Both the position numbers and the translations under genes were made by a program. Below, piece by piece: positions 52,732 through 55,585 of a DNA stretch of 64,000 nt. The notes under the pieces were generated by a model. The model searched no databases. It worked only from the letters and a program-made list of their open reading frames with translations, and was not told where the DNA came from. Position 1 is the stretch's first letter. Each line of letters starts with the position of its first letter. Origin of the DNA: Pyrinomonadaceae bacterium (GTDB taxonomy: Bacteria > Acidobacteriota > Blastocatellia > Pyrinomonadales > Pyrinomonadaceae); contig JAIBCB010000002.1 of the NCBI GenBank assembly GCA_019694355.1, positions 682,001 through 746,000 of the forward strand. Direction: 5' to 3'.

Positions 52732-54591
52732 CTAGCTTTCTTCGAGGGCTTCGAAGACCTGGAGGGCGTATTTCACGTTGCCGAACGGGGCAGAGACCTG
52801 AACGCCTTGGATCGCGTCGCGGACCTCTAGCAGCGATTCGCGGGCGATCACGATGCCTTCCTCGCGAGCGTGTTCCTTGCTCTTGTCGGAGGCGATGCGC
52901 ATCCGTTCGAGGATCTCTTGCGTTACGTTCACGCCGGGAACTTCGTTGTGCATAAACTCGGCGTTGCGGTACGAGATGAGCGGCCAGATGCCCGCAACGA
53001 TCGGAATGCGAACGTGTGAGATGCGGTCGAGGAAATGCCGGAGCTGTTCGGTGTCAAAGACGGGCTGTGTTATGGCGTATTCGGCACCGGCTTCGACCTT
53101 CCACTCGAAACGGCGGATCTCTTCGTCGAGATTAACGGCACCGGGATTTACGCCGACACCGATCGAGAATTCCGTCGGGCGGCCGATCGGATTATTGCCG
53201 AGATCGAGGCCGTGATTGAGCTTGTTGGCCATGTTCGTCAAGCCGATCGAGTCGATGTCAAAGACGGCGGTCGCATCCGGATACGGTCCCATTTTCGGCG
53301 GGTCGCCGGTGATGAGCAGCAAGTTGTGCAGCCCCAAGGCGGCGGCCCCGAGAAGGTCGGACATCATTCCGAGCAGGTTTCGATCACGGCAGCAGTAATG
53401 GAGGACGGGCTCGATGCCGACCTTTTCCTGCACGAGCACGGCGGTCGCAAGGGCCGACATACGCGTCTGCGCTCGAGGGCCGTCAGGGATGTTCACGCCG
53501 TCAACTCCTTCCTCGTGGAGGAGCCGGATCGATTCGAGGGTCTTTTCCGCATCACAGCCTTTTGGCGGCAGAACTTCGACCGATGTCACGAATTCACCGT
53601 TGGCGATCTTTCGCGACCAGCGGCTGCGGTCTTCTCTTCGCACCACGTGAATGTCGGGCGGTTTAATGTCGGAGACGGAGACGATCTGACGGCGTGCTTC
53701 GCTGATGGCCTGACGCGGGCTGATCGAGCGGACGGCGTCGGCGATAAGCTTGATATGCGTTGGCGTGGTCCCGCAGCAGCCGCCGATGAATCTTGCGCCG
53801 GCCGAGACGAAACGCTTTGCGAAGGTCGCCATATATTCCGGCGAGCCCATATAGAACTGTCGGCCTTGCACGTCACGCGGCAGCCCTGCGTTCGGCTGAG
53901 CCGAAAGATCTTTTTCGGTCACGGCACGCATCTTTTCGAGAGCGTTCAAGAGGTGATTCGGCCCCATTCCGCAATTCAGCCCGACGATGTCGGCACCGAG
54001 TTCGTCGAGGCGTTTGGCGATGGTTTCCGGCGTGGTTCCGAACGCGGTTTTGCCATCCATCTGTATCGTCATCTGGGCGACGATCGGCAGGTCGCTTACT
54101 TCGCGGACGGCCTTGATCGCCTGCTCGATGATCTCCAGCTCGGAGAAAGTTTCGAGCACGAAGAGATCGACGCCGCCTTCGAGCAACGCATTGACCTGTT
54201 CGAGATAGAAGCCTTTTGCTTCGTCAAAAGAGGTCGGGCCGAAAGGTTCGATGCGAAGCCCGAGCGGGCCGATCGCTCCGGCAACGAACGCTTTTTCGCC
54301 TGCGGCCTGGCGAGCGATGCGTGCGGCCGCCACGTTGATCTCGTGAAGCTTTGATTCGAGCCCGTAAGGCTGGAGTTTTGGACGCGTCGCACCGAACGTG
54401 TTCGTCTCGATAATGTCGGCACCGGCGGCAACGTATTCGTCATGCACCTCGCGGACAAGATCGGGCTGCGTAAGATTAAGCTCGTCGTAGCTGCGATTGA
54501 TGTAAATGCCTTTGTCGTACAGGCGAGTGCCTACGGCGCCGTCAAAGACGTAAACACCTTCGCCACCGACGAGGTCGCGAAACTTTTTCAT
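52732..54591 (-). CDS. Homocysteine S-methyltransferase / methylenetetrahydrofolate reductase fusion
   Basis: The 619-residue protein joins two one-carbon enzymes. Residues about 1-300 form a homocysteine-binding barrel (YVFDGAVGTRLYDKG, ADIIETNTFGATRP) with the zinc cysteines in GLNCGMGP and GGCCGTTP. Residues about 325-619 form the MTHFR barrel (VTSVEVLPPKGCDAEKT, LHYCCRDRN, LLITGDPPKMGPY, ITQPVFDTEQL). It is laid out like YitJ of Bacillus. It should make methyl donors and methionine. A SAM-II riboswitch with terminator in the leader indicates repression by SAM. Confidence 0.93.
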   Translation of the reverse strand: MKKFRDLVGGEGVYVFDGAVGTRLYDKGIYINRSYDELNLTQPDLVREVHDEYVAAGADIIETNTFGATRPKLQPYGLESKLHEINVAAARIARQAAGEKAFVAGAIGPLGLRIEPFGPTSFDEAKGFYLEQVNALLEGGVDLFVLETFSELEIIEQAIKAVREVSDLPIVAQMTIQMDGKTAFGTTPETIAKRLDELGADIVGLNCGMGPNHLLNALEKMRAVTEKDLSAQPNAGLPRDVQGRQFYMGSPEYMATFAKRFVSAGARFIGGCCGTTPTHIKLIADAVRSISPRQAISEARRQIVSVSDIKPPDIHVVRREDRSRWSRKIANGEFVTSVEVLPPKGCDAEKTLESIRLLHEEGVDGVNIPDGPRAQTRMSALATAVLVQEKVGIEPVLHYCCRDRNLLGMMSDLLGAAALGLHNLLLITGDPPKMGPYPDATAVFDIDSIGLTNMANKLNHGLDLGNNPIGRPTEFSIGVGVNPGAVNLDEEIRRFEWKVEAGAEYAITQPVFDTEQLRHFLDRISHVRIPIVAGIWPLISYRNAEFMHNEVPGVNVTQEILERMRIASDKSKEHAREEGIVIARESLLEVRDAIQGVQVSAPFGNVKYALQVFEALEES

Positions 54592-54600
54592 AGAAACCCT

Positions 54601-54632
54601 AAAAAGGCCTCGCCAATCCAGCGAAGCCCTTT
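54601..54632 (-). terminator. Intrinsic terminator in the methyltransferase leader
   Basis: On the minus strand, AAAGGGCTTCGC (54632-54621) pairs with GCGAGGCCTTT (54613-54603) around a seven-base loop, ending in five T only nine bases before the ATG. Position after a SAM-II aptamer makes it the probable expression platform. Confidence 0.75.
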
Positions 54633-54650
54633 CAAAAATTGAATGTGCGT

Positions 54651-54706
54651 CAGCTGTTTAGCGGTTTATTTAACGTGGTCGCAAGTCGCAATAACTCACC
54701 ACGAAG
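54651..54706 (-). promoter_or_regulatory. SAM-II riboswitch aptamer
   Basis: On the minus strand the leader reads CGTGGTGAGTT, then CTTGCGACCACGTTAAA and ACCGCTAAAC. This matches the SAM-II consensus: P1 CGTGG/CCACG (54703-54699 with 54678-54674), the TGATTT-like L1, the CTTGC loop of the pseudoknot, the GTTAAA segment and the 3' CGCTAAA strand. SAM-II binds S-adenosylmethionine and controls methionine genes in Alphaproteobacteria and others. Here it precedes a methionine-cycle enzyme, which supports the call. Confidence 0.88.
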
Positions 54707-54715
54707 TATATATCG

Positions 54716-54744
54716 ATATTGTGCCTTTCAACGCGTGGTGTCAA
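54716..54744 (-). promoter_or_regulatory. Promoter of the riboswitch-controlled gene
   Basis: On the minus strand, TTGACA (54744-54739) is followed 17-18 bases later by the AT-rich CAATATC. Transcription would begin just at the aptamer. It lies between the mutM stop and the aptamer. Confidence 0.5.
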
Positions 54745-54757
54745 GGAGTTACGGGGC

Positions 54758-55585
54758 TTATCGGCGTTGACAGGTGCTGCAGAAGTATGTCGAGCGGCCG
54801 CCGTGCGTAATGCGTTTGACGGCGTTCGAGCAGACTTCGCATAGTTCGCCTTCGCGGTCGTAAACTTGCCAGCGGCCGTTCTCAGGAGCGTAGTTGCCGT
54901 TGATGTTACGTGGGTCGAGCTTGCCTTTTTTCGACATCTTTAGAGCTTGCTCAAGCGTGAATTTGATCGCCGCAAAGAGCCGTTCGGCACGCGGCCGCGA
55001 AATGCGATTCGCTCTTACGGATGGATGGATGCCGGCAAGGAACAGCGTTTCGGCGGCGTAGATATTTCCGAGGCCCGTCACCTTTGTTTGGTCGATGAGA
55101 AATTCTTTCAGCGTTCGGCGTGAGAGCTTGAGCGATGAAAAAAGCTGATCGACGTTAAATTCGGGCGAGAACGGTTCGGGAGCGAGTTTTGCGATCTCCG
55201 GTGAACTCGCAAGTTTGTTGGTCTCGACGATCTTCATCAGTCCGAAGTGCCGCTGATCGTCGAAAACAACCCGCTGTCCGTCGGCTAGGTAGAAAATGGC
55301 GTGAGCGAATTTTGGGTCTTCGTCCTCAGCATCGAGAAGCATAAAACGCCCGCTCATCCGCAGATGCACGAGCAGAGTCAAGCCGCCCGCAAACTCGATG
55401 AGAACGTGCTTGCCGCGTCGGCCAACTCCGCAGATCTTTTGCTTGTTGAGTTTTCGAGTAAAGGCCGAAGGCGTTGTCGATGGAGCAAGTTTTGCTCGAA
55501 GGAGGACAGCTTTCTCGACCATTCTGCCCTTTAAAAGGCCGTTCAATTGACGTGCGACAAGATCGATCTCGGGAAGTTCAGGCAT
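54758..55585 (-). CDS. mutM: Formamidopyrimidine-DNA glycosylase
   Basis: Fpg/MutM excises 8-oxoguanine and nicks the abasic site. The 275-residue enzyme has the obligatory PELPE N-terminus (catalytic Pro2 and Glu3), the LRMSGRFML and DDQRHFGLMKI segments, the H2TH region with DQTKVTGLGNIYAAETLFLAGIHP, and a C-terminal zinc finger with C-x2-C ... C-x2-C (CEVC, CSTC). Length is normal. It starts 6 bases after the nucleotidyltransferase stop on the same strand. Confidence 0.96.
   Translation of the reverse strand: MPELPEIDLVARQLNGLLKGRMVEKAVLLRAKLAPSTTPSAFTRKLNKQKICGVGRRGKHVLIEFAGGLTLLVHLRMSGRFMLLDAEDEDPKFAHAIFYLADGQRVVFDDQRHFGLMKIVETNKLASSPEIAKLAPEPFSPEFNVDQLFSSLKLSRRTLKEFLIDQTKVTGLGNIYAAETLFLAGIHPSVRANRISRPRAERLFAAIKFTLEQALKMSKKGKLDPRNINGNYAPENGRWQVYDREGELCEVCSNAVKRITHGGRSTYFCSTCQRR

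Follow-up and report, generated by a model that had tools for sequence, protein, structure and literature searches.

A SAM-II riboswitch ahead of a methionine-cycle gene in Pyrinomonadaceae and its predicted antiterminator

The locus and its leader

The minus strand of the window (the whole 64-kb stretch of DNA analysed here) carries a gene for a bifunctional homocysteine S-methyltransferase/methylenetetrahydrofolate reductase of the YitJ type, downstream of a mutM/fpg gene that we list for context only (Table 1). An earlier note, made from the letters of this DNA, had already read the target as such a fusion, and the profile matches agree with that reading (NF006396 at 754.8 bits; Pfam PF02574 and PF02219). 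The ATG at 54591 is kept as the start codon among relatives, the nearest named ones being the Pyrinomonadaceae (Acidobacteriota) metagenome-assembled genomes SZAS-14 (98% protein identity) and OLB17 (94%). From the mutM/fpg stop (54758) to this ATG, the intergenic stretch measures 166 nt on the minus strand, and the transcribed leader takes up about 120 nt of it.

Table 1. Genes and leader features discussed in the text.
Feature	Position	Strand	Basis
Bifunctional homocysteine S-methyltransferase/methylenetetrahydrofolate reductase (YitJ type), 619 aa; regulated gene	52732..54591	-	Profile matches
Formamidopyrimidine-DNA glycosylase (mutM/fpg); upstream neighbour	54758..55585	-	
-35 box TTGACA	54739..54744	-	Recurs in relatives' leaders
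-10 box CAATAT, 17-nt spacer	54716..54721	-	Aligned position in relatives; function inferred
SAM-II (SAM_alpha, RF00521) aptamer	54637..54712	-	cmscan 44.0 bits, model 1-79
P1 5′ strand CGUGGU	54703-54698	-	Sequence and RF00521 match
Loop L1 motif GAGUUA (class consensus GAUUUG)	54692..54697	-	RF00521 match
CUUGC element	54685-54681	-	Sequence
P1 3′ strand ACCACG	54679-54674	-	Sequence and RF00521 match
GUUAAA element	54674-54669	-	Sequence
CGCUAAA element	54663-54657	-	Sequence
Pocket/pseudoknot 3′ strand GCUAAACAGC; proposed antiterminator 5′ strand when SAM-free	54653..54662	-	Complementarity, covariation
Intrinsic terminator AAAGGGCUUCGC...GCGAGGCCUUUUU, U run 54605-54601	54601..54632	-	Fold, kept in relatives
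Terminator apex GCUGGAUUGGC, predicted antiterminator 3′ strand	54612..54622	-	Complementarity, folding, covariation

The covariance search that the earlier note had proposed as a check returned RF00521 over the full length of the model, scoring 44.0 bits where the gathering cut-off is 36 (E = 1.3e-6, computed over 64 kb × 4227 families), and this is the sole Rfam match within the window. It is not due to chance. The P1 hairpin and the CUUGC, GUUAAA and GCUAAA elements that define membership of the class are all present, on the minus strand and in the places where they had been recognised by eye (there as CTTGC, GTTAAA and CGCTAAA). The leader is a real SAM-II riboswitch, ordinary for its class. 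The 3′ strand of the aptamer, GCUAAACAGC, includes the GCUAAA that is conserved in the ligand pocket and also supplies one of the two strands of the pseudoknot.

A single base sets loop L1 apart from the class consensus (GAGUU in place of GAUUU). The same motif, GAGUUA, occurs in 104 of 129 leaders and GAUUUA/G in the remainder; it prevails in Pyrinomonadaceae, while other Blastocatellia have GAUUUA and the class at large GAUUUG. The two uridines beside the changed base, which we take to face the sulfonium (2QWY numbering), and the ligand-contacting U of GCUAAA are kept in GAGUUA leaders, and for this reason SAM would still be the expected ligand, with an affinity that may differ. Pairing of L1 with the 3′ strand forms the P2 pseudoknot, of which the first two P2a pairs are present in 128/129 leaders and the third in 69/129; these pairs are too invariant to lend covariation support. 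In Acidobacteriota leaders P2a thus amounts to 2–3 bp, whereas P2 typically has 5 bp in the class (PMC6061858).

Upstream of P1, a promoter is kept. In nearly all yitJ-type leaders of relatives, TTGACA (in the context CTTGACA) lies 41–46 nt before the GTGG of P1, with an exact copy in 57 of the 68 leaders examined after alignment by P1, and the -10 position reads CATTAT, CATCAT or CAATAT. A promoter scan of the window did not report the -35/-10 pair, the box CAATAT falling below threshold; the pair was recognised through comparison of the relatives' leaders. Because this conserved promoter adjoins the aptamer, the latter probably forms the 5′ end of its own transcript. Position 54744 is the start of the -35 box, so the span singled out by the earlier note covers promoter, aptamer and terminator.

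As attenuation would call for, an intrinsic terminator is present between aptamer and start codon. The hairpin with a T run reported nine bases before the start codon is confirmed: it has 12 bp (54632-54603) and comes with UUUUU at 54605-54601, a run that ends nine bases 5′ of the ATG at 54591. Hairpin and UUUUU both belong to the minimum-energy fold. A terminator scan alone was not significant (1 found vs a shuffle mean of 1.1), and our confidence comes from conservation among relatives, since a hairpin with a U run stands at the equivalent place in nearly every relative's leader, with differing stem sequences. The distance from terminator to ATG ranges in relatives from 0 to >100 nt.

SAM-II leaders across Acidobacteriota

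In a draw of 396 Acidobacteriota genomes, 28 of them from the window's own family, SAM-II matches were found in 52 and exceeded the cut-off in 35. Within that family sample SAM-II is present without exception (28 of 28), mostly in two copies. The targets are methionine biosynthesis, methionine-cycle or related genes: the yitJ type in the window and metH, metY, thrC and metK among relatives, where gene names come from reading the translations and from mutual similarity, without a family scan. Other families place SAM-II before threonine synthase, O-acetylhomoserine sulfhydrylase, metH and, in one family, SAM synthetase. No published description of SAM-II in Acidobacteriota was found in the literature searched.

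The window's own genome holds a second copy, which precedes metH (G000:C1:316355-316429, i.e., L002 1501-1575 and L038; 39.2 bits). This copy has its own terminator, whose apex CUUGUUUAAGG is again complementary to the aptamer strand GCUAAACAGC, and metH copies of relatives are likewise preceded by SAM-II. The metH-side riboswitch, the promoter and the antiterminator pairing described below all lie beyond what the earlier note had noticed. SAM-I (RF00162) gave no covariance match in the window or the genome, while control genomes did give matches; a search of the genome for SAH riboswitches also gave no match, with the controls silent as well. Near related genes at 16 loci from other phyla no Rfam matches were found, and neither were plasmid records resembling the leader itself.

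Several arrangements depart from the single aptamer of the window. Tandem SAM-II aptamers stand before threonine synthase in other Blastocatellia (L065 201-413, L070 201-398 and L054 2201-2416), the last with an additional ORF between the tandem and the gene. They resemble the tandem SAM-II riboswitches of which 44 cases are already described (PMC9481103). Between SAM-II and metH, an unrelated small ORF is found in L037, L041, L048, L056, L060, L009, L020 and L079, for example one encoding a 168-aa protein in L037 and L041; SAM-II may also control such an ORF. In a distant Acidobacteriota genome (L012 1501-1576 and 1705-1777, both on the minus strand), a 44.2-bit SAM-II match lies near a tRNA gene. 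A terminator was not found at that site and the downstream ORF resembles no methionine gene among those tested; translational control or an unusual target is possible there.

Predicted base pairing between pocket strand and terminator apex

The pocket strand GCUAAACAGC (54662-54653) and the terminator apex GCUGGAUUGGC (54622-54612) are complementary, with a pairing energy of -12.1 kcal/mol. In the window, GCUAA can pair with UUGGC and CAGC with GCUG, interrupted by a small internal loop in which GA faces A; this antiterminator is weaker than in most relatives. Most relatives show the complementarity too, typically with the apex GCUGUUU(A/G)GC, which spans the loop together with the upper part of both terminator arms. 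Of 131 leaders, 113 have their best pocket-strand pairing with the terminator centred no more than 2 nt from the apex.

The pairing also covaries. At strand position 7, 136 leaders show C:G (111), G:C (10), G:U (4), A:U (3) or U:G (2), and 6 are unpaired. The pairing program selects the best register and so inflates such counts, an effect partly offset by two further tests: a permutation over the 14 distinct strand types, in which 0.025% of re-assignments match the real pairing, and a fixed-register count, in which C-type strands face GUUU and G-type strands face CUUU. The sole C-type leader scored with CUUU (L018) reflects a mis-chosen hairpin, the true one carrying GUUU, and the hairpins of L003 and L032 were set by hand for the covariation and fixed-register counts. 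The G-type strand belongs to threonine synthase leaders in one family and to O-acetylhomoserine sulfhydrylase leaders in two others. The leaders are also related by descent, a further caveat on these counts. Taken across the 136 leaders, the recurrence and covariation of the pairing give good support to the pocket strand GCUAAACAGC as the strand predicted to block the terminator. Five leaders of metH and yitJ-type genes in one other family (L064, L068, L077, L080 and L081) lack the apex pairing: the apices of their terminators have no complementarity to the aptamer strand, and switching there must follow another route.

An aptamer strand able to form an antiterminator that excludes the terminator is, by computation, present in the leader, and nascent-chain folding places it in time. 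With the 3′ end of the transcript at 54611-54607, the antiterminator has a probability of 0.97 and terminator pairs number 0.0; blocking GCUAAACAGC at the same lengths gives 1.2 to 5.9 terminator pairs. Across 128 leaders folded to that length (L018 excluded), the medians are 9.5 antiterminator and 0 terminator pairs, and 3.8 terminator pairs when the strand is blocked. At equilibrium, on the other hand, the terminator is the preferred fold of the full-length leader, whether the strand is free or blocked. The decision must therefore be kinetic, made during transcription, as it is in other attenuating riboswitches.

Proposed switch, alternatives and known relatives

We consider it likely that this SAM-II riboswitch works as a transcriptional OFF switch for the methionine-cycle gene. 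The aptamer match, the terminator, the apex complementarity, the covariation and the folding order are computed results; SAM binding, actual termination and mutual exclusion of the two helices in the cell are inferred. RNA polymerase would start just upstream of P1, to judge from the promoter, and transcribe the aptamer first. With SAM bound, GCUAAACAGC would be held in the pseudoknot, leaving the hairpin 54632-54603 and its U run free to form, and transcription would end before the ATG. At low SAM levels the pseudoknot would have only a weak P2 (2–3 bp) and GCUAAACAGC would pair with the emerging apex (GCUAA with UUGGC, CAGC with GCUG), keeping the terminator arms apart so that the gene is transcribed.

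The aptamer could instead sense SAM while the terminator is constitutive and trims transcription at a fixed rate; SAM would then act elsewhere, for example through mRNA stability or translation, a scheme that has been put forward for S. meliloti metA. The metA leaders of S. meliloti and Rhizobium (L163, L166 and L169) are built like that of the window, SAM-II and then a terminator, and the strong terminator of S. meliloti metA is not predicted to respond to its SAM-II riboswitch (PMC9373788); the preference of full-length folds for the terminator in either state is also consistent with such an arrangement. However, it would leave the complementarity of the apex to the pocket strand, and its covariation, without a reason, and no apex match was found in those three rhizobial metA leaders. 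The S. meliloti metA terminator lacks an antiterminator link to the aptamer (PMC9373788), whereas apex pairing is predicted in the window. We therefore regard a constitutive terminator as unlikely. Even less probable is a degenerate or non-functional relic, an idea hardly worth entertaining: the single-genome score is moderate (44 bits vs 85 in S. meliloti), but the element is kept in every sampled genome of the family together with promoter, terminator and covarying pairing.

The two remaining alternatives are both very unlikely in our judgement. Masking of the ribosome-binding site upon SAM binding is known for the Sargasso metX SAM-II, and a possible weak Shine–Dalgarno sequence, AGGG (54600-54597), directly follows the U run here. 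The aptamer, however, ends about 60 nt from the ATG, its 3′ strand shows no complementarity with the Shine–Dalgarno region, any such site would be covered by the terminator and not by the pseudoknot, and the variable terminator-to-ATG spacing in relatives also speaks against this mode. The apex pairing could also serve for tertiary docking, stabilising the OFF state with SAM bound instead of acting as an antiterminator, and the complementary stretch is indeed centred on the hairpin loop, as in a kissing interaction. Yet its partner GCUAAA forms the SAM pocket, which makes the two uses mutually exclusive, and the full pairing of 9–10 bp requires opening the top 4–5 bp of the terminator on both arms. 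Transcriptional attenuation through the pocket strand accordingly remains our preferred reading, and to that extent the attenuation suggested by the earlier note stands as the likely mode. The part of that suggestion which does not hold is that attenuation departs from a usual SAM-II mode of masking the ribosome-binding site. A terminator does not make this SAM-II unusual: many representatives were stated to carry intrinsic terminators at the discovery of the class (PMC1273637), a 2007 survey also found them to be the rule (PMC2258182), and a later structural paper describes most SAM-II riboswitches as transcriptional, with the translational metX example a rare one (PMC6061858).

The closest known parallels are rhizobial, from a handful of SAM-II leaders on rhizobial replicons, and any contrast with them is provisional. 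S. meliloti metZ (L168), for which SAM-bound termination is predicted (PMC9373788), and Shinella (L164) share with the window the aptamer class, its place at the transcript 5′ end, a downstream terminator, a methionine-cycle target and the OFF logic (PMC9373788, PMC1273637). In Shinella, the terminator 5′ arm has its foot paired to AGGCCGG, the outer strand of P2, at -19.0 kcal/mol; for S. meliloti metZ, a similar foot pairing can be drawn by eye (CCGGUC with GGCCGG), but the program preferred a site in the coding region. These rhizobial leaders would thus use a long P2 3′ strand, whereas Acidobacteriota, with their P2a of 2–3 bp, would direct the pocket strand GCUAAAnAGC to the terminator apex. 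This difference is a variation within a known kind.

The yitJ leader of B. subtilis offers a parallel of another sort: the gene is of the same kind, a homocysteine methyltransferase/MTHFR fusion, and its SAM-I (S-box) leader is a SAM-responsive terminator/antiterminator OFF switch, although the aptamer class is unrelated to SAM-II. The yitJ aptamer is cited in PMC1273637.

It seems probable, with less assurance than for the OFF switch itself, that Blastocatellia, and Pyrinomonadaceae above all, have a lineage-specific platform in which the SAM-pocket strand GCUAAAnAGC serves as antiterminator and invades the terminator apex on both arms, where rhizobia pair the outer P2 strand with the terminator foot. 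If this is true, a single stretch of ten nucleotides must serve either the ligand pocket or the antiterminator, and the two compete for it. In the earlier literature that we surveyed, the switching strand of transcriptional SAM-II riboswitches was only predicted, and for single leaders; what is new here is a concrete candidate antiterminator for SAM-II, backed by covariation. SAM-II, a class named for the alpha-proteobacteria, is extended by these leaders to a well-conserved methionine regulon of an environmental phylum.
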